Positions 1 through 11,811 of a stretch of 11,811 nt of DNA are shown one piece after another. Position numbers and translations under genes: made by a program. The first letter of the stretch is position 1, and each line of letters begins with the position of its first letter. A model generated the notes under the pieces. The model was not told the origin of the DNA, did no database searches, and saw only the letters and a program-made list of their open reading frames with translations. This DNA comes from Gammaproteobacteria bacterium (GTDB lineage: Bacteria; Pseudomonadota; Gammaproteobacteria; Steroidobacterales; Steroidobacteraceae), in NCBI GenBank assembly GCA_020846815.1, contig JADLDF010000013.1, positions 1 to 11,811 of the forward strand, written 5' to 3'.

Positions 1-239
1 AGCTACCGCTCTACGAGAAGCCGGTCCGGGTCGCGCTGGAATCGGACGGGCTCACCAGCATCGCGATCCAGCGGGTCGGGACGCTGGGCAGTTTCGCGAG
101 GCAGGAGGTCGAATTGAAGCCGGGACGTTACGTCGTGATCGGGACGCGCGCGGGGTATCGCGACGTCCGGCACGAGATCCTGGTCGCGCCCGGCCAGGCG
201 CCGCAGCCCATCCAGGTCCGCTGCGTCGATCCCATCTAG
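1..239 (+). CDS. C-terminal end of a PEGA-like domain protein (5' end outside window)
   Basis: Only the last 78 codons are visible, read from base 3 to the TAG at 237-239. The fragment looks like the end of a PEGA-type or related small beta-sandwich domain: a hydrophobic strand, then LKPGRYVVIGTRAGYRDVR, the 'PG.Y.v...r.GY' pattern typical of PEGA repeats, then a short tail ending in VDPI. No catalytic residues, membrane segment or signal peptide lie in the visible part, so the full protein's function cannot be read. The next gene starts 3 nt after this stop, which implies co-transcription and probably translational coupling. The next gene also carries PEGA repeats, so both may belong to the same envelope assembly. 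The coding call is fairly secure; the PEGA assignment is a pattern judgement. Confidence 0.7.
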   Translation, partial: LPLYEKPVRVALESDGLTSIAIQRVGTLGSFARQEVELKPGRYVVIGTRAGYRDVRHEILVAPGQAPQPIQVRCVDPI

Positions 240-242
240 GTC

Positions 243-2711
243 ATGGACGCCCCGCCCTCGATCAGGCTGCGCGAGCCGGCCGGCGAGCGGCGCATCGATC
301 CGCCGCTTCGCATCGGCGGCGCCGACGCCGATCCCGTGCGCGTGCCGGGCGCCGCCGACGCCGGGACGCTGCGCATCGAATGGCGCGGCGACGGCTGGAT
401 CGCCGTGGCCGAGCAGGGCGCACGGGGTCTGCGCGCGAATGCGGAACCGCTCGGCGAATCGCCGGGGCACGAGCTGCGCGCCGGCGATGTGTTCGAGGTC
501 GGCGAGGCGCGCGTGGTCGTGCTGCGCATCGAGCCGGCGCTGCTCGACCTCGATGTCCGTCACCTCGTCGGCAACGACACGCTCGCGCCGCTGAGCCCGG
601 GCCTCGCGCGCAGCGACGTCGAGGATGCCTCGGACCGCGACATCGCCGCCGCTGCGCTCGATCTCGCGGACGACGCGCCGCCGGGTGCGACCGATCCGGC
701 CACGCGCGAGGCGCAGCAGCGTTCCGGCGGCCGCGCGAACCGCAAGGTCTGGGGGCTCGTCGCGCTGTGCGTCGTGGCGCTGGCGCTGTTGTTCGGCGTG
801 ATCGGCCGGCTGCAGCAGGTGAGCATCGACGTCGATCCGCCGGACGCCAGGGTCCGCGCCGGTTCGCTGCTGTCGTTCTATGCGGCGTCGACGCTGTTCG
901 TGATGCCGGGAACACAAGTGGTGCGCGGCGAGCGCGAGGGCTATGAGCCTCTCGAGCGGCGCATCGAGGTCGGCGAGGGCGGTACGCAGTCGCTGACGTT
1001 GAGGCTGCGCCGGCAGCCCGGTCTCGTCAGCATCGACACCGGCGGCATCGCCGCGACCGTGACGGTCGACGGCGCCGAGCTCGGCAAGGCCCCCGGCGAG
1101 CTGCGGATCCCGGCTGGCGCGCGCACGCTGACGCTGCGCGCCGAGCGTCACCTCGACGTGATCCAGAAGATCGACGTCGAGGGCGCCGGCGAGCGGCAGT
1201 CGCTGGTCGTGAAGTTCCAGCCGTCCTGGGGACGGCTCGCGGTCAGCGCCACGACGCCCGGTGCGCAGCTGCGGGTCGGCGACGCGCCGCAGGCACAGCC
1301 GCTGCCCGCGACGCTCGACCTGCCGGCGGGCGTGCACCGTCTGTCGATCGGCGCACCCGGCGCGCGCGAATGGGTGAGCACCGTGCTGGTCAAGGCCGGC
1401 GAGACCACGACGCTCGGTCCGCTGGTGCTCGGTGCGCCCGATGCGCGCCTGCTGCTGCGCTCGGCACCGGCCGGCGCCGAAGTCACGGTCGCCGGTTCGT
1501 TCCGCGGCCGCACGCCGCTGGAGCTGCCGCTGCCGGGCGGTGCCGACTACGACGTGCTGGTGACGCGCGCCGGCCATGCGGCCTGGCAGCGCAGGGTCCG
1601 CGCCGAGCCCGGTGCGCGGCTCGCGCTCGATGCGAAGCTGCAGCCGATCGTCGCGACGCTGGTCGTGCGCGGCGAGCCGGCCGATGCCGAGCTGCTCGTC
1701 GACGGCACGCCGCGCGGCCGCACGCCCGCGACGCTGGAGCTGCTCGCGACGCGCCACCAGGTCGAAGTGCGCCGTGCGGGCTCGCAGCCGTTCCGCGCCG
1801 AGGTCGATCTGACGCCGGCGCTGGCGCGCACGGTCGAGTATGTGCTGCTGCCCGAGGGGCGGCCTTCCGGCTGGAAGCCGCCGGAGGAGCGTCTCACCTC
1901 CAAGCTCGGCGTCGCGTTGCGGCTCGTGCCCGCCGGCAGCTTCGCGATGGGCAGCGAGCGGCGCGAGCAGGGCCGTCGTCCCAACGAGACGCTGCGCCGC
2001 GTGACGCTGTCGCGGCCGTTCTATCTCGGCCTGCGCGAGGTGACCAACGCGGAGTTCCGCCGTTTCCGTCCCGGGCATGCTTCCGGCTACGTCGACAAGC
2101 GCAGCATCGACCTCGATGCGCAGTCCGTGACCGGCGTCGGCTGGCTCGACGCGGTGGCCTACTGCAACTGGCTCTCGGAACAGGAAGGGCTGCCGCCCGC
2201 CTACGAGCAGAAGGACGGCGCCTGGGTCCTGCGCGCGCCGGCGACGACGGGCTACCGCCTGCCGACCGAGGCCGAATGGGAGTACGCGGCGCGCTTCGCC
2301 GGGCCGGGCCGGCCCGCGCGGCGCTACGAATGGGGCGAGGCGTTGCCGGTGCCGCCGGGCAGCGCCAATCTTGCCGGCGTCGAGGCGAGCGCCGCCGTCG
2401 AACGTCAGCTCGAAGGCTGGCAGGACGAGTACCAGTCGGTCGCGCCGCCCGGCAGGTATCCGCCGAGCGTGCTGGGGGTTTACGACCTCACCGGCAACGT
2501 CTCGGAGTGGACCCACGACGTCTATGCCTCGTTCGTCGAGCCCGGTGCGGTCACGGACCCGACGGGGCCGTCGAAGAGCGGCGCGCGGCGCGTGATCAAG
2601 GGCAGCAGCTGGCGCACGGCCTCGTTCCCGGACCTGCGGCTGGCGTGGCGCGAAGGCGTGGATGCGGCCTCGCAGGAGATCGGCTTCCGCGTGGCGCGGA
2701 ACGCCGAGTAG
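243..2711 (+). CDS. FHA-like / TM / PEGA repeats / FGE-sulfatase (SUMF1-type) domain protein
   Basis: This 822-residue protein has a clear domain order. Residues about 1-100 look like a degenerate FHA/YscD-like beta-sandwich: RIGG near 23, then HELRAGDVFEVGEARVVVL at 77-94. The usual Ser-x-x-His and Asn-Gly phosphopeptide motifs are absent. One membrane helix lies at about 170-190, preceded by basic residues (RANRK), so the N-terminus should be cytoplasmic and the rest periplasmic. About five PEGA-type repeats follow, near 193-258, 261-326, 328-398, 400-467 and 470-537; the last two carry the classical RGRTP core. Residues about 556-822 form an FGE-sulfatase/SUMF1 domain with VPAGSFAMGS, YCNWLS, YRLPTEAEWEYAAR, YDLTGNVSEW and IGFRVAR. 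The final strand reads KGSSW with no Cys after it, so the copper-binding Cys pair of true formylglycine-generating enzymes is missing and the domain is probably a binding module. The ATG at 243 follows the previous stop by 3 nt and has no strong Shine-Dalgarno, consistent with coupling. Confidence 0.9.
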   Translation: MDAPPSIRLREPAGERRIDPPLRIGGADADPVRVPGAADAGTLRIEWRGDGWIAVAEQGARGLRANAEPLGESPGHELRAGDVFEVGEARVVVLRIEPALLDLDVRHLVGNDTLAPLSPGLARSDVEDASDRDIAAAALDLADDAPPGATDPATREAQQRSGGRANRKVWGLVALCVVALALLFGVIGRLQQVSIDVDPPDARVRAGSLLSFYAASTLFVMPGTQVVRGEREGYEPLERRIEVGEGGTQSLTLRLRRQPGLVSIDTGGIAATVTVDGAELGKAPGELRIPAGARTLTLRAERHLDVIQKIDVEGAGERQSLVVKFQPSWGRLAVSATTPGAQLRVGDAPQAQPLPATLDLPAGVHRLSIGAPGAREWVSTVLVKAGETTTLGPLVLGAPDARLLLRSAPAGAEVTVAGSFRGRTPLELPLPGGADYDVLVTRAGHAAWQRRVRAEPGARLALDAKLQPIVATLVVRGEPADAELLVDGTPRGRTPATLELLATRHQVEVRRAGSQPFRAEVDLTPALARTVEYVLLPEGRPSGWKPPEERLTSKLGVALRLVPAGSFAMGSERREQGRRPNETLRRVTLSRPFYLGLREVTNAEFRRFRPGHASGYVDKRSIDLDAQSVTGVGWLDAVAYCNWLSEQEGLPPAYEQKDGAWVLRAPATTGYRLPTEAEWEYAARFAGPGRPARRYEWGEALPVPPGSANLAGVEASAAVERQLEGWQDEYQSVAPPGRYPPSVLGVYDLTGNVSEWTHDVYASFVEPGAVTDPTGPSKSGARRVIKGSSWRTASFPDLRLAWREGVDAASQEIGFRVARNAE

Positions 2712-2785: not shown

Positions 2786-3265
2786 ATGAGCTTCCTGAGA
2801 ACACGCATCGGCCGCGAGCTTCCGCGCCGACCGCTGTGGCGCGACCTGTTGCCGATCGTCTTCCTCGCGCTGACGATCCTGTTCGCGACCACGCGGCCAT
2901 TCCGCGCCGAGGCGCAGTCGTCCGAGTCCGCTTCGCAGCCGGCACCGACATCGGCGCCTGCATCGACACCGGCACCCCCATCGACGCCGACACCCGCGCC
3001 GGCGACACCGCCGGGCACGATGGGCACGCCGGAGGCGAGTCCGCCGGCCGCGCCGCCGACATCCCCGGCGCCCGGCGGCGAATCTTCCGTGCCGGCATCG
3101 AAGCCTGCCGACGCGCCTGCCGAAGCACCCGCCGGCGCCGACGACACCAACGTCGAGGAGCCGCAGGGGCCGCGTCGTGCCGCGCCGCCGAAGCTCTCGG
3201 AGGAGGAAGCGCCGGAGTATCGCGAGTCCGCCGACAACAACATCACGTTCCCGGTGGACATCTAG
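2786..3265 (+). CDS. Small exported Pro/Ala-rich protein with acidic C-terminal tail
   Basis: This 159-residue protein belongs to no family I recognise. The ATG at 2786 is supported by a strong Shine-Dalgarno (AAAGGAG, 2769-2775) 10 nt upstream. A basic N-terminus (residues 1-19) precedes one hydrophobic stretch at about 20-36, then the sequence RAEAQ near 40-44, which could be a signal-peptidase I site; otherwise the segment is an N-terminal anchor. Residues about 45-118 are a low-complexity Pro/Ala/Ser/Thr linker. The end, residues 119-159, is not low complexity: it is acidic, contains KLSEEEAPEYRESADNN, and finishes ITFPVDI. The layout suggests an anchored or periplasmic flexible tether whose C-terminal peptide docks on a partner. 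It sits mid-operon, and the next gene begins 1 nt after its stop. Function is unknown. Confidence 0.8.
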   Translation: MSFLRTRIGRELPRRPLWRDLLPIVFLALTILFATTRPFRAEAQSSESASQPAPTSAPASTPAPPSTPTPAPATPPGTMGTPEASPPAAPPTSPAPGGESSVPASKPADAPAEAPAGADDTNVEEPQGPRRAAPPKLSEEEAPEYRESADNNITFPVDI

Positions 3266-3266
3266 C

Positions 3267-4727
3267 ATGGAGGAGTCCATGGACGAGGCGAGCAGCTCCC
3301 GCCGCAGCGTCTCGGGCCTGGCGCTCGACGACGCCGCGCTCGCGACCGCCCGCGACGGCGCGCTCGAAGGCGTGCTGCCGTCGATCGTCGATGCGACGCG
3401 CGGTGCAGGCGCGCGCTTCGGGCGGCCGGCGACAGCCGCGGTGCGCGCCACGGCGACCGCCGTGTCCTCGCGTCACTGGTTCGACGTCGCGACCGGCCGG
3501 CCGCCCGCTGCGGAGTCGATCGCGACCGCGCGCGCCGAGCTCGCCGCCCGTTTCCTGGCGCGCGACGGCGCGCCGGCGGCCGTCGTGGCGGACCCCGCGG
3601 TCCCGTCGGCCCGGCGGCCCGGTGCGCTGCAGGTCGCCGTGCCGGCCCTGTTCGACGCGACGGGCCTGTCGCGGGTGCTCGCGATCTGCAACGCGCTGTC
3701 GCTGTCGGTCGCCGGTTTCGTCGACGCCGCGGCGCTGGCCGGCGCGGCGCTGCGCCTCGCGCGCGGTGCGGCGATCGTCATCGAGGTCGGGCTGCATCAC
3801 GTGGGCGCGACGCGGCTGGACGTCTCCGCCGTCGAAGTGCGGCGGCGCGCCACGCGGGTGCGCACGCGCGGCGGCCTGTACGCGCTGCAGGACGCCTGGC
3901 TGCATCTGATCGGCGAGGCAGCCGTGCTGCGCACGCGTTTCGATCCGCTGCACGATCCGGCGGTCGAGCAGCGGCTGTACGCCGAGCTGCCGGCGCTGGC
4001 CGCGGCCGCCGCGGCCGAGGGCAGCGCCCGCGTCGAGTTCGAGGCCAACGGCGAGCGCCAGGAGCTGACCCTGAGCCGCGACCAGTTCGCGGCGCGCGGT
4101 CAGGCGCTGTACTCCGACGTGGTCGCGATGATCCACGAGCTGCGCCCGGCGGGCGCACCGGTCACGATCGTCACCTCGCGTCTCGCGACCTCGCTGCCCG
4201 GGCTGCGCGAAGCGCTCGCCGAGTTCCGCGGCTGCGAGCTGCTGGAGCTGCCCGAGGGCTTCGTGGCCGTCGCGGCCTCGATACTGCCGGTCGCGCCGCC
4301 GATCGATCCTCTCGCCGACGAGGGCGCTGCGCGGGTGCGGCTGGTGCGCGGCCTCGCGCCGTTCGACGCGGTGCCGCTCGCCGGCGAGCTGTGCGCCTCG
4401 CGGCTCGGCGAGGCGGATTCGGCCGCGATCGAAGTGCCGACCCACCTGCTGTGGTCGGGCCGCGCCCTGCCGCTGCGCGGCGCGCGGATCGAGGTCGGCC
4501 GCGATCCCGGGGCGTCGGGCATCGCGCTGGCCGAGGGGCTCGCGGGCATCTCGCGCCTGCACTGCACCGTCTGCGACGACGGCGGGACGATCATGGTCGT
4601 CGACCACAGCCGTCACGGCACCTGGGTCAACGGCGAGCGCGTCGCCGGCCGCGCGCGCCTGCGCGCGGGCGATCGGCTGCGGCTCGGCGATCCGGGCGTC
4701 GAGCTCGAGCTGATCGCGGTGGGCTGA
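3267..4727 (+). CDS. FHA-domain protein with degenerate Hsp70/actin-like N-terminal region
   Basis: This 486-residue soluble protein has no signal peptide or membrane helix. Residues about 396-485 are a canonical FHA (phosphothreonine-peptide-binding) domain: GR at 411-412, ISRLHC at 428-433, HGTWVNGERV at 450-459. The first 340 residues follow the order of landmarks in Hsp70 nucleotide-binding domains. VAVPALFDATGLSRVLAICN (124-142) sits where 'VPAYFND.QR.ATKDAG' would be; FVDAAALAGA (151-160) matches the 'INEPTAAALA' site; AIVIEVGLHHVGATRLDV (169-186) sits at the phosphate-2 'DLGGGTFDVS' loop; and PVTIVTSRLATSLPGLREAL (298-317) matches the 'VLVGGSTRIP.v...l' region. The Gly-Gly-Thr loop and N-terminal DLGTT loop are not conserved, so ATP hydrolysis is doubtful. 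The start at 3267 is 1 nt after the upstream stop; an in-frame ATG at 3279, just behind GGAGGAG, is an alternative with short spacing. The FHA call is firm; the Hsp70-like call is moderately sure. Confidence 0.87.
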   Translation: MEESMDEASSSRRSVSGLALDDAALATARDGALEGVLPSIVDATRGAGARFGRPATAAVRATATAVSSRHWFDVATGRPPAAESIATARAELAARFLARDGAPAAVVADPAVPSARRPGALQVAVPALFDATGLSRVLAICNALSLSVAGFVDAAALAGAALRLARGAAIVIEVGLHHVGATRLDVSAVEVRRRATRVRTRGGLYALQDAWLHLIGEAAVLRTRFDPLHDPAVEQRLYAELPALAAAAAAEGSARVEFEANGERQELTLSRDQFAARGQALYSDVVAMIHELRPAGAPVTIVTSRLATSLPGLREALAEFRGCELLELPEGFVAVAASILPVAPPIDPLADEGAARVRLVRGLAPFDAVPLAGELCASRLGEADSAAIEVPTHLLWSGRALPLRGARIEVGRDPGASGIALAEGLAGISRLHCTVCDDGGTIMVVDHSRHGTWVNGERVAGRARLRAGDRLRLGDPGVELELIAVG

Positions 4728-4729
4728 GG

Positions 4730-5830
4730 ATGGCCGCGCAGCGCCGCAAGATCGAGGTCTTCAGCCTGTCGTTCCTCGACGTGATCTGCTGCGGCTTCGG
4801 CGCGGTGATCCTGCTGTACACGATCCTCAGCGCGCTCTCGGACCCCAGTACGGCGGCGCCGAACCGCGAGCTTTCCGCGCAGGTCGACAGGATCGACGAA
4901 GAGGTGCGCGAGGGTCGCGAGAATCTCGTCCGGTTGCGCAACACCCTCGAGAAGACCGAGGCCGAGATCACCTCGGCCAGCTCGCGCGCGACGCGGATGC
5001 TCGACACCCTGAAGAAGAACCAGGACGAGAGCTCCGTCTACGACGCCGAGACGCTCGCGCGCCGTGCGCGGATCCAGAAGCTGCAGGCCGACGTCAAGGC
5101 ACTGGAGGAGGGCAACCGCCGGCTCGAGGCCAGCGCGCGCACCGAGACCCCGCGTGCCGAGCGCGCCGGCACGGGTCAGGCGTTCCAGAGCCGCCGCTAC
5201 ATCACCGGCCTCGCGCTGCGCGGCAAGCGCGTGCTGGTGCTGGTCGACCGCTCGGCGAGCATGCTCGACGACGACCTCGTGAACGTGATCCTGCTGCGCA
5301 ACTCGCCCGAGGCGAAGAAGCGCACGGCGCTGAAGTGGCGGCGCACGGTCGACATCGTCAACTGGGTCGCGGCGCAGGTGCCGCAGGGGGCGCAGTTCCA
5401 GGTCTACACGTTCAACACCTCGTGGCAGCCGCTGATCGCCGGCACCAACGGCAAGTGGCTGCCGGGTGGCGAGGGCGCGCAGCTCGAGGCGGTCGCGAAG
5501 GCCATGGACGAGCTCGTGCCGCAGGACGGCACCAGCCTGATCAACGCCTTCCGCGCGATCCGCGACGTCAATCCCGAGCCCGACCAGGTCGTGCTGATCA
5601 CCGACGGACTGCCGACCCAGGGCGCCTCGCCGCCGGCGCTGCGCAGGTTCGTCGATGCCTCGGCCCGCGCCCGCTTTTTCGACGAGGCGGCGCGGGCGCT
5701 GACGCTGAAGGCGCCGGTCGACGTCGTGCTGCTGCCCATGAAGGGCGACCTGCCCGCCTCGCATCGCTTCTGGATGCTGGCGCGCAGCACCAAGGGCGCA
5801 TTCATCATGCCCTCGCCGGACTGGCCCTGA
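4730..5830 (+). CDS. ExbD/TolR-like N-terminal helix fused to coiled coil and vWA domain (paralog 1)
   Basis: The product has 366 residues. A short basic cytoplasmic N-terminus is followed by one membrane segment at about 11-34 containing FSLSFLDVICCGFGAVILL, with an Asp at 17. This resembles the N-terminal helix of ExbD/TolR/MotB, where a conserved Asp in 'P.iDv.l.LL..F' carries protons. Residues about 44-136 are charged and heptad-rich (predicted coiled coil). The vWA domain spans about 166-360 with a full MIDAS metal site: DRSAS at 173-177, Thr268 in QDGTSL, Asp292 in ITDGLP. By analogy with ExbD the vWA domain should be periplasmic. The start is 2 nt after the FHA gene's stop. It is a paralog of the next gene and shares the same architecture. 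It could instead be an ordinary membrane-anchored vWA protein in which the Asp is structural; the vWA call itself is firm. Confidence 0.92.
   Translation: MAAQRRKIEVFSLSFLDVICCGFGAVILLYTILSALSDPSTAAPNRELSAQVDRIDEEVREGRENLVRLRNTLEKTEAEITSASSRATRMLDTLKKNQDESSVYDAETLARRARIQKLQADVKALEEGNRRLEASARTETPRAERAGTGQAFQSRRYITGLALRGKRVLVLVDRSASMLDDDLVNVILLRNSPEAKKRTALKWRRTVDIVNWVAAQVPQGAQFQVYTFNTSWQPLIAGTNGKWLPGGEGAQLEAVAKAMDELVPQDGTSLINAFRAIRDVNPEPDQVVLITDGLPTQGASPPALRRFVDASARARFFDEAARALTLKAPVDVVLLPMKGDLPASHRFWMLARSTKGAFIMPSPDWP
4757..4804 (+). repeat. Copy 1 of a 48-nt perfect repeat (membrane-segment codons)
   Basis: Codons 10-25 of the first vWA gene are identical at every base, including all synonymous positions, to codons 10-25 of the second vWA gene at 5895-5942. 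The flanking codons 9 and 26 differ. Both copies encode VFSLSFLDVICCGFGA. Confidence 0.95.
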
Positions 5831-5855
5831 TGCCGCCGCGTCGCACAGCCTGCGC

Positions 5856-5861
5856 GGAGGG
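5856..5861 (+). promoter_or_regulatory. Ribosome binding site that selects a GTG start
   Basis: GGAGGG lies 6 nt before the GTG at 5868 and makes that GTG the start of the second vWA gene. The resulting N-terminus (MKLRRRETEVFSLS) matches the length of its paralog, with the shared motif at the same residue numbers, which confirms the choice. Confidence 0.8.
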
Positions 5862-5867
5862 CTCGCC

Positions 5868-6920
5868 GTGAAACTGCGCCGCCGCGAGACGGAAGTCTTC
5901 AGCCTGTCGTTCCTCGACGTGATCTGCTGCGGCTTCGGCGCGATCATCCTGCTGTTCGTGCTGTCGGACTACACCCAGCCCGGCGCGATCGAGGCCTCGC
6001 GCGAGGATCTCGACCGCCGGCTCAAGGCGCTGCAGGCCGAGCTGTTCGAGATCCGCGGCGACTCGCAGCGCCTCGAGCGCGAGCTCGCGGGCCGCGTCGA
6101 CCGGCTGGAGAAGGCGCGGCTGAACCTCGCGCGCGCGGCCGGCGACCTCTCGAGCATCAAGGGCGAGTTCTCGGCCTCGAAGCAGGAGGCCGCGGTCAGC
6201 AACATCGTCGAGACCGAGCTGCTCTCGCTGTACGCCGAGCTCGAGGCCGAGAACGAGAAGCTGCTGAAGCTCGGGCGCACGCGCCGCCGGATCTCGACCG
6301 AGGCCGTGGCCGGCATCCCGGTCGACAGCGACTACGTCATCTTCCTGATCGACACATCGGGCTCGATGCAGGGCAACCACTGGGAGACGGCCCAGGAGGT
6401 CATGAAGGAGATCCTCGACATCTACCCGCGGCTCAAGGGCGTGCAGATCGTCGACGACAACGGCAAGGAGATGTTCGAGGGCACGCGCGGGCGCTGGATG
6501 ACCGACTCGCCGAGCCTGCGCACCCAGATCGTCAACCGCATGCGCAACTGGCGCGCGTTCAGCGATTCGAGCCCGGCCGACGGCATCGAGATCGCGATCC
6601 GCAACTACTGGTCCGAGGATCGGCGCATCAGCATCTACGTGCTCGGCGACGAGTTCACCGGCGAGTCGATCCAGGCCTCGCTCGACGCCGTCGACAAGAT
6701 CAACCGGCCCGACGGCACCGGCCGGCGCCGCGTGCGCATCCACGCCATCGGCTTCCCCGTCGGCGGCGGCATGACGCCGTTTACAAACATCCGCTTTTCC
6801 GCCCTAATGAGAGCCATGTGCGAGCGCAACGACGGCACTTTCGTCGGTCTCACCAACGTCAGGGTCTGCGCCGCCACCTTCGAGGTCAACGGGGTCCGGC
6901 AATGCGTCGGAGGCAACTGA
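5868..6920 (+). CDS. ExbD/TolR-like N-terminal helix fused to coiled coil and vWA domain (paralog 2)
   Basis: This 350-residue paralog of the preceding gene starts at GTG 5868 behind a good Shine-Dalgarno. Residues 9-25 (EVFSLSFLDVICCGFGA) match the first paralog exactly, including the membrane Asp17 and Cys20-Cys21; the helix ends near 33. A long coiled coil occupies about 42-136 (RLKALQAELFEIRGDSQRLE and further heptads). The vWA domain covers about 154-330, with DTSGS at 162-166, a Ser at 234-235 where the MIDAS Thr is expected, and Asp261 in VLGDEF. A C-terminal addition has Cys334 and Cys346, which could form a disulfide if the domain is periplasmic. Outside the membrane motif, similarity to paralog 1 is low, so the two probably form a heteromeric pair rather than redundant copies. 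The 3' end overlaps the lipoprotein gene by 19 nt, and a rare-codon island lies at 6780-6812. Confidence 0.92.
   Translation: MKLRRRETEVFSLSFLDVICCGFGAIILLFVLSDYTQPGAIEASREDLDRRLKALQAELFEIRGDSQRLERELAGRVDRLEKARLNLARAAGDLSSIKGEFSASKQEAAVSNIVETELLSLYAELEAENEKLLKLGRTRRRISTEAVAGIPVDSDYVIFLIDTSGSMQGNHWETAQEVMKEILDIYPRLKGVQIVDDNGKEMFEGTRGRWMTDSPSLRTQIVNRMRNWRAFSDSSPADGIEIAIRNYWSEDRRISIYVLGDEFTGESIQASLDAVDKINRPDGTGRRRVRIHAIGFPVGGGMTPFTNIRFSALMRAMCERNDGTFVGLTNVRVCAATFEVNGVRQCVGGN
5895..5942 (+). repeat. Copy 2 of the 48-nt perfect repeat
   Basis: Identical base for base to 4757-4804; it encodes the ExbD-like membrane segment of the second vWA protein. Confidence 0.95.
6780..6808 (+). promoter_or_regulatory. 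Candidate sigma70-type promoter inside the end of the second vWA gene
   Basis: TTTACA (6780-6785, five of six bases of the -35 consensus) is followed after exactly 17 nt by CCTAAT (6803-6808, four of six of the -10 consensus). The site lies in a short A/T-rich island with codons rare for this sequence (TTT, ACA, TTT, CTA, AGA). Transcription would begin near 6815 and give the lipoprotein gene its own mRNA with a leader of roughly 85 nt or more. This is a sequence match only. Confidence 0.4.
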
Positions 6921-8050
6921 GTCGCCCGCCCGTCACGGATCACCCGTCCTCCCGCGACGTGCGGCGTCGCGCGCGGCTCGCACCGCTGCTGCCGTTGCTG
7001 ATGCTGCCGTTCGCCGGTTGCGGCGGCGTGAAGATCGCGCCGCAGCCGGTGCTGCCCAAGGCGCTGGTGCAGCCCGTACCGGCTCGCGTCGGTTTCGTGC
7101 TGCCGCCCGATCAGAAGGACTACGCCCACAACGAGACCCGCGGCGGCGTGCCCTGGAGCGTCTCGCTGGGCGAGGGCCAGCGCAAGCTCGCGCGCGAGGT
7201 CTTCAAGGCGAGCTTCCGGGCCGCCGAGGAGTTCGAGGACCTCGAGGTGGCCAAGCGCGCGGCGGGGCTGCAGGGCATCTTCGAGGCGCGGATCGAGCAG
7301 TATTCCTTCGCGACCGCGCGCGAGACCGGCGGCGACTACGTCGCGGTGACGATCCGCTACCGCATCCTGCTGCGCACGCCGCGGGGCGAGCCGGTCGATG
7401 CCTATACGCTGACCGGCTACGGCAACAGCGAGGCCGGTGGCATGAGCAGCAGCACGCCGCTCGAGATGGCGACGCGCGCAGCGATGCGCGACGCGGCGGC
7501 GAAGTTCCTCACCCAGTTCCCGGAGCAGCCTGCGGCGAAGGTCCTCGCCAGCGGCCAGCCGCTGGTCGCCGCGGCCACCGGCCAGGGCACGCCACTCGCG
7601 ACGCTGCAGGCGATCGAGGCGGTGCCGGTCCGCGCGTCCCGCCGTGGCAAGACCGGTACCGGCCATCCGACGCCGCCGCCCGCGACCTTGCCCGACTTCG
7701 GCGCGGGTTCCGGTGCGGGCGGCGCTCCGGCTGCAACGAGTCCTGCGCCGGTCGCCGCGCCCACCGTGCCCGGCGGGGAATCCGTCGAGCCGTCCGCGCA
7801 GGTTCCCGCGCCGCCGCCACCGGCCGGCGCCGAGCCACCGTCACCGCCCGGCGCGGAATCTGCCGAACCACCCGCGTCCGTCGAGCCGCCTGCGCAGCGA
7901 GGCAGCCGGGATCAGGCCCCGGCCGCAGCTCCGGTTCCGGTACCGGCCGGCGCCGAGCCGTCGCCCGGTGCGGCGCCGGCCGCGGGCGGTCTCAGCGTGC
8001 GTCCGCGGGTTCCTGCGGCGCCTTCACCAGCACCCGCTCGCGCAGCGTGA
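6902..8050 (+). CDS. Lipoprotein with Pro/Ala-rich C-terminal tail
   Basis: From the ATG at 6902 the product has 382 residues. A basic stretch (RRRAR) and a hydrophobic run APLLPLLMLPFAG lead to Cys40, a plausible lipobox (F-A-G-C). An in-frame GTG at 6959 would give a more standard 20-residue signal peptide before the Cys, so the true start may be there; the 6902 start would overlap the previous gene by 19 nt. The folded part, about 60-208, has alternating strands and helices (YVAVTIRYRILLRTPRGEP, then EMATRAAMRDAAAKFLTQ near the end). This is the outline of YajG/ABC_trans_aux-type lipoproteins, but I cannot assign a family firmly. Residues about 255-382 are a Pro/Ala-rich tail with imperfect repeats around PAGAEP and PGAES. 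An outer-membrane lipoprotein reaching toward the cell wall or the vWA proteins would fit the operon. The 3' end overlaps the convergent TPR gene. Confidence 0.82.
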   Translation: MRRRQLSRPPVTDHPSSRDVRRRARLAPLLPLLMLPFAGCGGVKIAPQPVLPKALVQPVPARVGFVLPPDQKDYAHNETRGGVPWSVSLGEGQRKLAREVFKASFRAAEEFEDLEVAKRAAGLQGIFEARIEQYSFATARETGGDYVAVTIRYRILLRTPRGEPVDAYTLTGYGNSEAGGMSSSTPLEMATRAAMRDAAAKFLTQFPEQPAAKVLASGQPLVAAATGQGTPLATLQAIEAVPVRASRRGKTGTGHPTPPPATLPDFGAGSGAGGAPAATSPAPVAAPTVPGGESVEPSAQVPAPPPPAGAEPPSPPGAESAEPPASVEPPAQRGSRDQAPAAAPVPVPAGAEPSPGAAPAAGGLSVRPRVPAAPSPAPARAA

Positions 8051-9437
8051 CGCCCTCGGTGGCCACCGGCTCGCCGTTCTCGAGCCGCGGTGCGTAGCGC
8101 GCCTTGCGCACCGCGAACAGCGTCGCCTTCTCGATCGACTGCGGCGCGTCGGTGCCGACGGTCTCGACGTCGGCGACCTTGCCGTCGGCGAGCACCTTGA
8201 AGCGCGTCTCGACGTAGCGCTCCTCGTAGCTGCCCGGATCGTTCGGGCGCGCGCGCGCGATCGATGCAGAGGGCGGCCGGTAGGCGAGGCGCCGCGGCGC
8301 CTGCAGCAGCACGGCTGCGTCGTTGCCGGCCGCGACCAGTTCCTTCCAGCCTTCGCGGTAGGCCTGGTTCGCCTTGGCGGTCGCGCCGCCGATCAGGTAC
8401 CAGTCGCCGAGCTCGACCAGCGTCTCGCCGCGGGCGCGGCGGTCGACCGGGTCGACCTTCGACAGCGCCTCGAGGGCATAGCGCAGCGCACGCTCGCCGT
8501 CCGGGTTCAGGCGGTTCTCCTGCCCCATCTGCTGCAGCGACGCGTTGGCCTGGAACGGATCGGGCGGTGCCTCGGCTTCCTCCGGGCCGTAGATGAACTC
8601 GAGATAGTAGGTGCGGGCGAGGCCGCGCAGCGACCCGACCGACTGCGGCGTGCCGCGTCCCGCGACGCTCTCGGCGATCATCAGCGCGCGCGCATGCAGG
8701 CCGCGCGCGGTCGTGTAGCGGCCGACGAATTCGTTCCAGCGCGCGAGGCGGTCGAGCGGCTCGAGCATGCGCAGGTCGTTGCGCCCGTAGGCGGACTCGG
8801 CGACGCGGAAGGCGTACTGGTTCTCCTTCTCGGCGTCCTGCAGCCGGTCGAGCGCGACGTAGCTCTCGATCAGCGGATCGAGGATGTCGAGCTGCTCGAC
8901 GTTGAACAGGCCGTCGAGGTTGCGCGACAGGTCGACGGCGCGCTTCAGCGCAGTCGCGGCCTCCGCATGCTGCCGGGTCGCGAGATAGGTCTCGCCGAGG
9001 CCCGTCAGCGGGCGCATCAGCATGCGATCGGCGCCGGCGAGCTTGCCCTCGATCAGCCGCACGGCCCGCAGGTAGGCGGTCTCGGCGGCCGGGTAGTCGC
9101 CGAGACGGTAGTAGACGGTGCCGAGATTGGTCAGCGGATTGACGAGCTGGCGGTCGTCCGGACCGTACTGCTGCTCGGTCAGCTCCACGAGGCGCTGCGC
9201 GATCGGCAGCGCAGCAGTGAAGTGGTCGGCGTCGAACTCGGCCCGGAACGCCTTGTAGACGTCGTGGCGCTCGGCATCGGTGGCCGCGGGCGAGGGCGCG
9301 GATGGAGGCGCGGGCGAGGGCGCGGGCACAGGCGCTGCCGCTGGTACGGGCGCGGGCGCGGGCGCGGCCGTCGGTGCAGCGCCGGCCGCGAGCAGCGACG
9401 CGACGCAGGCGGCGGGGATCAGTTGGCGCGGTAGCAT
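7992..9437 (-). CDS. Secreted TPR protein with TonB-like C-terminal domain
   Basis: The product has 481 residues from the ATG at 9437. An upstream ATG at 9581 would run through the neighbouring methyltransferase remnant and is unlikely. Residues 1-22 are a signal peptide or an uncleaved anchor (hydrophobic, Ala-rich), followed by a Pro-Ala linker to about 52. Residues about 55-390 are helical, with TPR-like units such as LTNLGTVYYRLGDYPAAETA (102-121) and a second near 143-170. The last 75 residues, about 405-472, match the TonB C-terminal fold: a strand with VLADGKVADVETVG, a helix with KATLFAVRKARYAPRLENGEP, and a final strand LRERVLVK. TonB domains link inner-membrane energy to outer-membrane partners, but TPR-TonB_C proteins are often structural and not coupled to ExbBD. 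It converges on the ExbD-like/vWA block, and the 3' ends overlap by 59 bp. It may be co-transcribed with the methyltransferase remnant 38 bp upstream. Confidence 0.88.
   Translation of the reverse strand: MLPRQLIPAACVASLLAAGAAPTAAPAPAPVPAAAPVPAPSPAPPSAPSPAATDAERHDVYKAFRAEFDADHFTAALPIAQRLVELTEQQYGPDDRQLVNPLTNLGTVYYRLGDYPAAETAYLRAVRLIEGKLAGADRMLMRPLTGLGETYLATRQHAEAATALKRAVDLSRNLDGLFNVEQLDILDPLIESYVALDRLQDAEKENQYAFRVAESAYGRNDLRMLEPLDRLARWNEFVGRYTTARGLHARALMIAESVAGRGTPQSVGSLRGLARTYYLEFIYGPEEAEAPPDPFQANASLQQMGQENRLNPDGERALRYALEALSKVDPVDRRARGETLVELGDWYLIGGATAKANQAYREGWKELVAAGNDAAVLLQAPRRLAYRPPSASIARARPNDPGSYEERYVETRFKVLADGKVADVETVGTDAPQSIEKATLFAVRKARYAPRLENGEPVATEGVTLRERVLVKAPQEPADAR
9348..9365. 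repeat. GGGCGC hexanucleotide tract (3 units)
   Basis: Three perfect GGGCGC units, with looser copies nearby at about 9305-9327, encode the Pro-Ala linker of the TPR protein. Such tracts change length in whole-codon steps by slippage, so linker length may vary between strains. Confidence 0.6.
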
Positions 9438-9475
9438 CGGTGATGTCCGTTCGGTCGGGTGTCCTGTGGCGCCGG

Positions 9476-10020
9476 TCAGCGGCGCTCGAAGAGATAGTGG
9501 GAGACGAACCACTCGCGGCCGCCGCCGTAGCCCCAGAGCTCGGCGCAGGACATGAAGAACACGCGCCAGTAGACCCACCATTTGAGCGCATGGTCGGCAC
9601 CGTAGGCCTGCTCGAGCACCGGCATCACGGCGGCGCGGCGCGCGCCTCGGCGGCGTCGAGGCCGGCCGCGGCCTGTGCGACGTCGAAGCTGTCGTAGCAG
9701 CAGCTCGAGTATTTCAGGTGCCGGCCGAGCACCTGCCGGTAGAACTCGGCCGGCATCTCGTAGTGCTGAGCGTTCGCCTCGGCGGTGTGGATCGCGATCG
9801 GGCTTTCGCGCAGGCGCCGCACGAGCTCCATGAGCCGCGCCTGCTGCCGCTGCGGGTCGCCCTGGTCCTCCGTGCGCAGCCGCTCGGCCAGCAGCGCGCG
9901 GACGCGGCGGCGGACCAGCCAGTCGGGCACGCGGTCCGACTCGAGCAGCCGCATCGGGAACGAGGTGGCTGCGTCGTCGGCCGGTGCGGGGGTGGGGGTC
10001 GGTGCGGTGGAAACCGTCAT
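9476..10020 (-). pseudogene. Cyclopropane-fatty-acid-synthase-like SAM methyltransferase, internal deletion and frameshift
   Basis: Two ends of one protein remain in different frames. From the ATG at 10020, 131 codons encode the N-terminal part of a CFA-synthase-like methyltransferase: VPDWLVRRRVRALLAERL, then NAQHYEMPAEFYRQVLG and LKYSSCCY, ending at a stop at 9625-9627. In the next frame the C-terminus follows at once: AAVMPVLEQAYGADHALKWW, WRVFFMSCAELWGYGGGREW, then VSHYLFERR and a stop at 9476-9478. In intact relatives (about 350 residues from memory) these blocks are separated by the SAM-binding Rossmann core with its VLDLGCGWG-type motif; none of it is present. About 180 residues remain, so roughly half the gene is lost, with a join near 9630-9650. 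The product cannot bind SAM. The 134 bp upstream (10021-10154) has a GC-rich hairpin but no convincing promoter. An assembly collapse is the main alternative. Confidence 0.88.
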
Positions 10021-10154
10021 GATGTCGCCAGGCCGTGAATCCTTCCAGCGGGCCGGGCATCCACAGTATCACGATGGCCCGCGGCTCGCCGCCGCGGCCG
10101 GCCGTGTCGGAGATGGATGACGCGCGCAGCGGCTTTGCCTAAGCTCACCGCCGC

Positions 10155-10877
10155 ATGGATCGTGTTGCGAACGCCAAGCCATCCGGCACCCCGCCGGGCG
10201 CGCGACAGGCCTGGGTCTTCGGCGCCTCCGGCCTGGTCGGCCGTCGTCTCGTCGATGCCCTGCTCGAGTCGAGCGACCACGCGCGCGTGACCGCCGTGAC
10301 GCGTCGTCCCTTCGGCCGCGAACATCCGCGCCTTGCCAACCGCATCGTCGCCTTCGAGCGCCTGGAGTCGCAGCTCGGTGGCGTCGCCTGCCACGACGCG
10401 TTCTGCTGCCTCGGCACGACGCTCGCCCGGGCCGGCTCCGAGGCCGCCTTCCGCGCGGTGGACCACGACGAGGTGCTGCGGGTCGCGCGTATCGCCCGCG
10501 AGGCCCGTGCCGAGCGCTTCGTACTGGTGTCGGCCGCCGGTGCCGACCCGGCTGCGAAGAACTTCTATCTGCGCGTCAAGGGCGAGACCGAAGTCGACGT
10601 TGCCGCCCTCGGTTTCCCGGCGCTCGACATCGTCCAGCCCGGGCTGCTGCTCGGCGGCTCCCGCGCCGAGTCGCGGCCGCTCGAGTCGGTGGCACGCCTG
10701 CTGATGCCGCTGGCGAATCCCCTGCTCGGCGGTGCGCGCAAGGCCTGGCGGGGCATCGACGTCGGCGTGCTGGCGCGGGCCATGGTCGCCCTCACGCGCA
10801 GCGGCCGACGGGGCGTCAACCGCTACACCTACGAGGCGCTGCACAAGCTCGCCGCTAGGGCGGGCGCGGCGCGCTGA
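10155..10877 (+). CDS. NAD(P)-binding atypical short-chain dehydrogenase, TIP30/HTATIP2-like
   Basis: This 240-residue Rossmann-fold protein has the dinucleotide-binding motif GASGLVG at 23-29 and a basic pair (TRRP, 49-52) after the second strand that suggests NADPH. The family block CCLGTTLARAGSEAAFRAVD lies at 84-103, followed by RFVLVSAAGAD (121-131). A Ser126 and Tyr138-x-x-x-Lys142 arrangement matches the catalytic triad of short-chain dehydrogenases. The tail, with PLANPLLGG and GIDVGVLARAM, is typical of the bacterial HTATIP2/TIP30-like group often annotated as NAD-dependent epimerase or oxidoreductase. Substrate is unknown. No clear Shine-Dalgarno precedes the ATG, so the exact start is less certain than the gene. 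It transcribes away from the methyltransferase remnant and converges with the VanZ-like gene 23 bp downstream. It looks like an ordinary chromosomal gene outside the vWA block. Confidence 0.9.
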   Translation: MDRVANAKPSGTPPGARQAWVFGASGLVGRRLVDALLESSDHARVTAVTRRPFGREHPRLANRIVAFERLESQLGGVACHDAFCCLGTTLARAGSEAAFRAVDHDEVLRVARIAREARAERFVLVSAAGADPAAKNFYLRVKGETEVDVAALGFPALDIVQPGLLLGGSRAESRPLESVARLLMPLANPLLGGARKAWRGIDVGVLARAMVALTRSGRRGVNRYTYEALHKLAARAGAAR

Positions 10878-10907
10878 GCTCGCGGGCGCGGCTCCGGCGC
10901 TCAGCGC
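10871..10907. terminator. Inverted repeat spanning both stop codons of convergent genes
   Basis: GCGCTGAGC (10871-10879) and GCTCAGCGC (10899-10907) are perfect 9-bp complements around a 19-nt GC-rich loop. The left arm contains the TGA of the dehydrogenase gene and the right arm contains the stop of the VanZ-like gene on the other strand. The position suits a shared bidirectional terminator. No T-tract follows on either side, so intrinsic termination is uncertain. Confidence 0.4.
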
Positions 10908-11811
10908 ACCCGTACCGCTGCTCCCGGCCGCTGCGCCACGCGCACGACGACCGCCGCCAGCACCATCACGGCGAGGTCCGTGGTATCCGGTACGCGATCC
11001 GGCAGCCAGCGCTGCGCGAATTCCACGACCGCGGTCAGGCCGAGCAACGCCAGCGTGCCGAGGCCGACGCCGAGGGCGCTGCCCGCGGCGATCCAGACGA
11101 CGCCGATGGCGACGAACAGGCGTTCGAGCGTACCGAAGTAGAGCGCGTCGACGCGGCCGTCGACGAGCCCCGCGAACGGCATCCAGCTGGCCGGTTGCGG
11201 CGTCGCGGAGAACGCGAACGGCGCCAGGCCCGAGACCAGCAGCGCGACGCAGACGATGCCGAGCAGCGGCGTGCGCGAGCTCGAATGCGTGCGGCTGCGC
11301 AGGCGCGCGACGACCGGCAGCGCGAGCGCGACGGCGATCAGCTCGTCGGGGGTCAGCGTCTGGCCGACGAACAGCAGCCGCGCGGCCAGCGACAGCGCGA
11401 TCACGCCGAGGAACAGCGGCCAGAAGATCTCGCGTCGGAACAGCGTGCGCATCACCGCCGACAGCACCAGGCAGGCAGCCAGCCAGGCCGCGACGCCGCC
11501 GACCGACGGCGACAGCGACAGGCTCGCGTCGATCGCGGCGCGCACCCTCCCCGGCCGCAGCCGCGGCAGAAAGGGTGCGGCATGCGCCGCGACCCACAGC
11601 GCCAGCAGCAGGCCGAGTGCGGGACTGACGTTGAGCCGGCGCAGGCGCGTCGCCAGCGGTCGCACCGGCAGCAGCGCGAACAGCAGCGCGAGCGTCGCGC
11701 CGATCGCGGTGCTGGCGACGTTCAGCACCCAGTCGGCGAGGCTCGGCACGCGCGCGCGGATCGCGTGCTGCAGCACCTCGACGCCGATCGACAGCAGCGC
11801 GCCCGCGGCGA
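10901..11811 (-). CDS. VanZ-family membrane protein with duplicated VanZ motif (5' end outside window)
   Basis: The reading frame runs from the stop at 10901 to the window edge without a credible start. The codons before the GTG at 11776 continue a VanZ helix (AAGALLSIGVE), so the gene begins beyond 11811. VanZ-family proteins are multi-pass membrane proteins; VanZ itself gives low-level teicoplanin resistance, but most members have no known role. Two motif copies have identical spacing: E-V-L-Q-x(5)-R-V-P-x(3)-D at the visible start, and E-F-A-Q-x(5)-R-V-P-x(3)-D near the C-terminus, both followed by a hydrophobic helix. Between them are several further hydrophobic segments (WLAACLVLSAVM, FWPLFLGVIALSLAARLLFV, LLGIVCVALLVSGLAPFAF), and the region looks like two VanZ domains in tandem. 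The protein ends with a short basic tail, VRVR. The family call is firm; the function is unknown. Confidence 0.87.
   Translation of the reverse strand, partial: AAGALLSIGVEVLQHAIRARVPSLADWVLNVASTAIGATLALLFALLPVRPLATRLRRLNVSPALGLLLALWVAAHAAPFLPRLRPGRVRAAIDASLSLSPSVGGVAAWLAACLVLSAVMRTLFRREIFWPLFLGVIALSLAARLLFVGQTLTPDELIAVALALPVVARLRSRTHSSSRTPLLGIVCVALLVSGLAPFAFSATPQPASWMPFAGLVDGRVDALYFGTLERLFVAIGVVWIAAGSALGVGLGTLALLGLTAVVEFAQRWLPDRVPDTTDLAVMVLAAVVVRVAQRPGAAVRVR

Follow-up and report, generated by a model that had tools for sequence, protein, structure and literature searches.

The two adjacent genes for the vWA proteins vWA1 and vWA2, found in the window (the whole stretch of 11,811 nucleotides of gammaproteobacterial DNA that was analysed), probably encode the B subunits of a proton-driven motor of the 5:2 type, the motor gene of which is in this organism probably located elsewhere. 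It is the genomic context of the pair, together with a conserved Asp in the N-terminal helix of each protein, that makes a proton motor likely. The vWA pair lies among the following features, given by position, strand and description:

1 to 242, plus strand: terminal part of a gene that matches the kinase-type gene found upstream in related loci (window positions 3-236, 101 bits)
243 to 2711, plus strand: protein with PEGA repeats and a formylglycine-generating-enzyme-like domain (PEGA-FGE) after a hydrophobic segment identified by eye (FGE-sulfatase E 2.3e-45, PEGA E 3.5e-41)
2786 to 3265, plus strand: small protein rich in Pro, with a single hydrophobic segment and a C-terminal tail ending in FPVDI
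3266, no strand: site where relatives have a MotA/TolQ/ExbB gene, here 1 bp between the flanking genes
3267 to 4727, plus strand: Hsp70-nucleotide-binding-domain-like protein with a C-terminal FHA domain (Hsp70-FHA; Pfam FHA, profile and AlphaFold2/Foldseek matches)
4730 to 5830, plus strand: vWA1, putative stator B subunit with Asp17 helix, coiled coil and vWA domain with full MIDAS (366 aa, ATG start; Asp17 codon 4778-4780)
5868 to 6920, plus strand: vWA2, putative second stator B subunit with Asp17 helix, coiled coil and vWA fold (350 aa, GTG start; Asp17 codon 5916-5918)
6902 to 8050, plus strand: lipoprotein-like gene (LipoDn) after the vWA pair (258 bits to the LipoDn profile)

Both reading frames begin, as a sequence-only reading of this DNA had described, with basic residues and a helix carrying an Asp, which are followed by a coiled coil and a vWA domain; the coordinates that it had given for the two genes, and its placing of the Asp at residue 17 in each, were likewise correct. 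The two proteins were 24% identical over 306 aligned columns, and the EVFSLSFLDVICCGFGA block of the helix was identical in both. Pfam VWA_2 matched vWA1 above its cut-off of 27 bits (29.5 bits) and vWA2 below it (21.4 bits). The AlphaFold2 model of vWA2 (19-row alignment) had a mean pLDDT of 71.4, with 77-90 per block in the vWA part (about residues 151-330) and less than 50 in residues 1-14, and contained a helix at residues 15-34 followed by long helices at 39-104 and 112-138. Foldseek searches with this model retrieved vWA structures, for example inter-alpha-inhibitor heavy chain 1 (4.7e-8) and the von Willebrand A3 domain (1.4e-6), while the top row (2.3e-8) came from a chain in an entry with the title B19V capsid. 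By the usual definition of the MIDAS, the complete set of its residues was found in vWA1 (D173, S175, S177, T268 and D292, conserved in 18 of 18 aligned sequences); in vWA2 the DxSxS motif and Asp261 were present (D162, S164, S166 and D261, conserved in 19 of 19), and a matching Thr was not identified among the 19 aligned sequences. Judging by these residues, the two vWA heads may differ in metal binding.

Asp17 was present in 153 of 154 N-termini from related loci and the window, comprising 73 of 73 vWA1 and 80 of 81 vWA2 proteins (window counted in both), with a Glu in the one exception. The sample consisted of the window and 80 loci, the top 80 of 210 relatives, and the count omitted pieces at contig edges or broken (the second L036 piece, L016, L003 and L044) as well as pieces below 150 bits. 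A first regular expression, in which the Asp was required, recovered 70 vWA1 and 77 vWA2 N-termini, and the misses were then judged by eye. The sole vWA2 protein read with Glu at position 17 was encoded at 9902-10975 of L012, the genome of which has its motor gene in trans.

A link of the two helices to proton-channel stators had been proposed from the shape of the motif; gene order, co-occurrence and conserved residues of the partner protein supported it in part, the profile similarity of the helix was not significant, and the motor gene was absent from the window. A TolQ/ExbB/MotA-type gene (the motor gene) was indeed present near homologous loci. Of the 61 sequences (window included) that extend 3.6 kb or more upstream of vWA2, 55 had it upstream of the pair and in every case on the strand of the pair; without the window, the count is 55 of 60. 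Altogether, motor-gene profile matches were obtained in 58 of 81 sequences. The MotA_ExbB domain of Pfam was detected in the upstream gene of five loci (L004, L006, L052, L023 and L015; 49.7-56.3 bits, cut-off 22.9), in each of which the motor gene was positioned two genes upstream of vWA1, as it was in most of the relatives studied. The profile of the motor family (13 members) matched TolQ (8odt, E 2.5e-4), and two threonine positions of the TolQ channel (T145 and T178 of 8odt, by hand count along the profile alignment), which we take to be important in TolQ, were both conserved in 58 of 58 motor proteins.

Co-occurrence of the motor gene and vWA2 was assessed in 217 genomes from the same taxonomic family as one of the relatives (G006): 89 had both genes, 2 the motor gene only, 7 vWA2 only and 119 neither, so that both were present in 89 of the 98 genomes with either (Fisher p 1.3e-49, uncorrected for ancestry). 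In two of the seven genomes with vWA2 only (G087 and G153), the vWA2 match began at a contig end. The corresponding numbers for a class-wide set of 369 genomes were 28, 3, 0 and 338, respectively, also uncorrected for ancestry, and at least G006, G121 and G179 were common to both samples. No ExbD match was found on the same contig at a distance of up to 20 kb from vWA2 (9 of 9 genomes) or from the motor gene (10 of 10), some of the contigs being shorter than this, and no ExbD/TolR gene was detected in the window by Pfam. Two genomes (G093 and G095) had two motor genes of the family each, one near vWA2 and the other on a separate contig. Named isolates with the cluster include Kineobactrum sediminis and Seongchinamella.

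Profile similarity of the helix to ExbD/TolR/MotB, which the sequence-only reading had suggested, was not significant when 60-column helix profiles were compared by hhalign. The highest probability was obtained for vWA1 against ExbD (3.4%, E 0.013), followed by the pooled vWA1 and vWA2 helices (1.4%) and vWA2 (1.1%), and the values against MotB were at most 0.5%. The inputs for ExbD and MotB were 29 of 63 and 15 of 18 matches, respectively, drawn from these genomes. The positive control, ExbD against MotB, reached 74%, and among five unrelated membrane-segment controls, LipoUp against vWA2 (1.8%) and ExbD against PEGA-FGE (4.1%) scored above ExbD against vWA2 and ExbD against vWA1, respectively. 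Pfam matches of the window's proteins to PF02472 (ExbD/TolR) or PF13677 (MotB) were likewise absent. The stator reading thus rests on context and on the Asp rather than on a demonstrable homology of the helix. The vWA proteins resemble ExbD/TolR and MotB in having a short basic N-terminal tail, a single helix with an Asp and a MotA/TolQ/ExbB partner, and differ from them in this lack of a Pfam or significant profile match and in ending with a vWA domain where ExbD/TolR and MotB have their own C-terminal domains.

The lack of a significant match to ExbD or MotB also fits a different explanation, which we regard as unlikely: the helix could be a mere membrane anchor with a conserved packing face, and the vWA pair could serve the PEGA-FGE, Hsp70-FHA and lipoprotein components as a scaffold or chaperone, with the MotA/TolQ-like protein operating alongside and not taking in the helix. 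The conserved CCGFGA block could then be a packing motif, and 6 of 18 vWA1 members did match a model of a MoxR-vWA ternary system, if weakly (best E 0.00039). A mere anchor is, however, difficult to reconcile with a near-invariant Asp17 within the hydrophobic segment of both proteins, with a dedicated motor protein whose gene has no ExbD neighbour in the genomes tested, and with the retention of the motor gene even where it lies outside the cluster.

In the window itself, a motor gene next to the pair was absent; with the small gene extending to 3265 and the Hsp70-FHA gene beginning at 3267, there is no room for one. Among the 61 sequences, the motor gene was missing from the cluster in L009, L012, L013, L055 and L064 in addition to the window, and in the genomes of all five a full-length motor homologue, sharing 51-60% identity with the one of L008, was encoded elsewhere. 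At 9986-10984, L055 encodes a verrucomicrobial vWA2 homologue with no matches to other cluster profiles in the locus, and both a motor gene and a vWA1 gene were found elsewhere in this genome (L084 and L116). A cluster without the motor gene, combined with a motor gene elsewhere, was observed in seven genomes (G001, G002, G003, G089, G140, G191 and G199). The two were 1.44 Mb apart on one contig of 4.65 Mb in G089 and about 100 kb apart on a shared contig in G191, while the motor gene of G140 was situated at the end of a 9.7 kb contig, with one flank unseen. Searches with the cluster profiles identified no other cluster genes within 1.5 kb of the trans motor copies in G001-G003, nor in the stretches fetched around those of G089, G140, G191 and G199, the contig of G140 ending there. 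Altogether, both genes were present and not in cis in 28 genomes; the trans count was taken from nine of these, and many of the other 19 may represent contig breaks. One candidate, G203, was rejected as a trans case, its motor gene being in cis and split over two contig ends, and in G008 the cluster was cut by the contig start. A tree of 20 hand-picked vWA2 proteins, in which the window and L010 (G008) were given the trans label by inference, required four changes between cis and trans labels, and well-supported branches made three of these unavoidable. The seven genomes with a cluster lacking the motor gene and a copy elsewhere suggest that the motor protein can work in trans, and most likely the motor gene of the window's organism is encoded elsewhere in the same way.

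The gap in the window could also reflect a decaying copy of the cluster from which the motor has been lost, and the nearest to the window of the 217 genomes searched, G203 (vWA2 82% identical), does carry the gene in cis. We consider decay very unlikely, however, as the cluster genes lying wholly in the window are open and have retained Asp17 and the metal-site residues, and all five other motor-less loci with room for the gene have it elsewhere in the genome. The Hsp70-FHA protein of the window has an altered N-terminus, which was shared by P0248 (97% identical) and P0249 (76% identical), both on other contigs, and was unlike the short MSTLG-like start of the 18 of 18 further homologues compared (P0250-P0267). 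The arrangement therefore appears to be stable in a clade, which speaks against decay, and the shared N-terminus equally argues against an error of assembly. An assembly artefact of this contig, from which alone the gap is known, is the least probable of the explanations weighed here, since the gap falls between two genes with 1 bp separating them, and seven other genomes are without the motor gene at the same place.

If the vWA pair does belong to a proton motor, vWA1 and vWA2 would be its paired, membrane-anchored inner (B) subunits, one of each, with their N-terminal Asp17 helices inside a pentamer of the dedicated MotA/TolQ/ExbB-type protein. Protons would pass Asp17 and the two conserved threonines of the pentamer and cause the pair to turn, and the coiled coils would transmit this motion across the periplasm, as far as the pair of vWA domains, which could hold a partner by way of the metal site. 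That the vWA heads grip is a guess. Proton-driven motors could, if all this is true, bear gripping heads instead of the usual periplasmic domains.

A stator-type pair of vWA proteins has already been presented in print: the TPH-vWA proteins (Williams-Jones et al. 2025, Mol Biol Evol, PMC12204202, section 8) are described there as membrane-tethered, with a TolR/ExbD-like helix and its Asp, as heterologous pairs tightly linked to a tolQ-like gene without tolR/exbD, and as occurring mainly in Proteobacteria and Verrucomicrobia; section 8 presents AlphaFold3 models and no experiment. The window shares with the proteins of that section the heterologous vWA pair, the conserved-Asp helix, the vWA fold and the absence of tolR/exbD nearby, but has no adjacent tolQ-like gene and is therefore a variant rather than a plain member. 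The Hsp70-FHA, PEGA-FGE, FPxDI, kinase and lipoprotein genes and a motor in trans are not named in the text of section 8 and its legend, on which the comparison is based, and the gene clusters drawn in the figure may show such neighbours. The present analysis adds to it the motor gene in trans, the other genes of the cluster and the counts of co-occurrence. Among the best matches listed in literature searches, no other paper was evidently concerned with these vWA proteins, and searches by term found no mention of vWA in a 2026 review citing that work (PMC12905483) or in PMC12505986. The trans arrangement constitutes a natural test, in that the same motor protein is kept when it no longer adjoins its partners; such retention is stronger evidence of a partnership than gene order alone, and it also means that surveys of gene neighbours will miss members.

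Membership of the Zorya system was considered and rejected: the L006 motor protein matched ZorA models weakly (best 2.5e-5, at most 21.5 bits), the two vWA proteins had no match to a ZorB model when five cluster proteins were scanned with PADLOC, and neither component was at model strength. The same scan gave weak coiled-coil matches of the vWA proteins to JetC and LmuB. The Agl-Glt gliding machinery is comparable in that a TolQ-type motor, FHA domains and a vWA protein occur in one trans-envelope system, the vWA adhesin CglB being separate from the motor. Matches to Agl-Glt models were below the cut-off for GltG (23.2 bits, cut-off 650) and GltJ (12 bits, cut-off 450).

Among the other genes of the cluster, the profile of the 3267-4727 protein matched Hsp70 chains (4gni, E 3.9e-6) as well as FHA chains (2fez, 1.1e-8). 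Foldseek searches with the AlphaFold2 model of this protein (pLDDT 87.2) gave matches to DnaK and BiP. Gly-rich phosphate loops of the usual kind seem, by eye, to be missing from the Hsp70-like domain, which may for this reason be a switch and not an ATPase. The conserved C-terminal tail of the small protein (SADNNITFPVDI in the window) looks like a docking peptide; of 58 sequences examined (the window among them), 48 had the pattern [FLIV]Px[DE][IVL] directly before the stop. A Pkinase domain was found in the corresponding upstream gene of L004 and L006, and many other loci had a different gene (U3) in the place of the kinase-type gene. If the motor reading is true, such a module of kinase, FHA and Hsp70-like components may switch the motor. 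A fuller version of the proton-motor reading is put forward tentatively, as a doubtful possibility: a rotary vWA1-vWA2 heterodimer, controlled from the cytoplasmic side by phosphorylation (kinase and FHA) with the Hsp70-type protein as the switch, whose metal-dependent heads would grip and release an envelope partner such as PEGA-FGE or the FPxDI tail, and whose pentamer gene would have left the cluster several times and be obligatory in trans.

Other assignments of cluster genes were tried and set aside. Linkage of FHA to the kinase-type gene failed as a rule: the Hsp70-like protein carried FHA in 13 of 13 loci of the kinase type, in 18 of 40 of the U3 type and in 13 of 14 in which neither gene was seen. 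Strong matches of the L004 kinase to defence-system models that include kinases (mad6, 3.5e-33, and PD-T4-6) were taken as general kinase similarity, and identification of the PEGA-FGE protein as GldK (TIGR03525) was rejected at 101.8 bits against a cut-off of 350. In the window, neither the small protein nor LipoDn had a match in Pfam, and the relatives of LipoUp and LipoDn had none above the cut-off. A convergent gene on the minus strand (7992-9581) encodes a TPR protein with a domain like the TonB C-terminal domain (PF03544, E 1.1e-8), and similar-looking TPR/TonB-type genes were seen by eye at the same place in L004 and L006.
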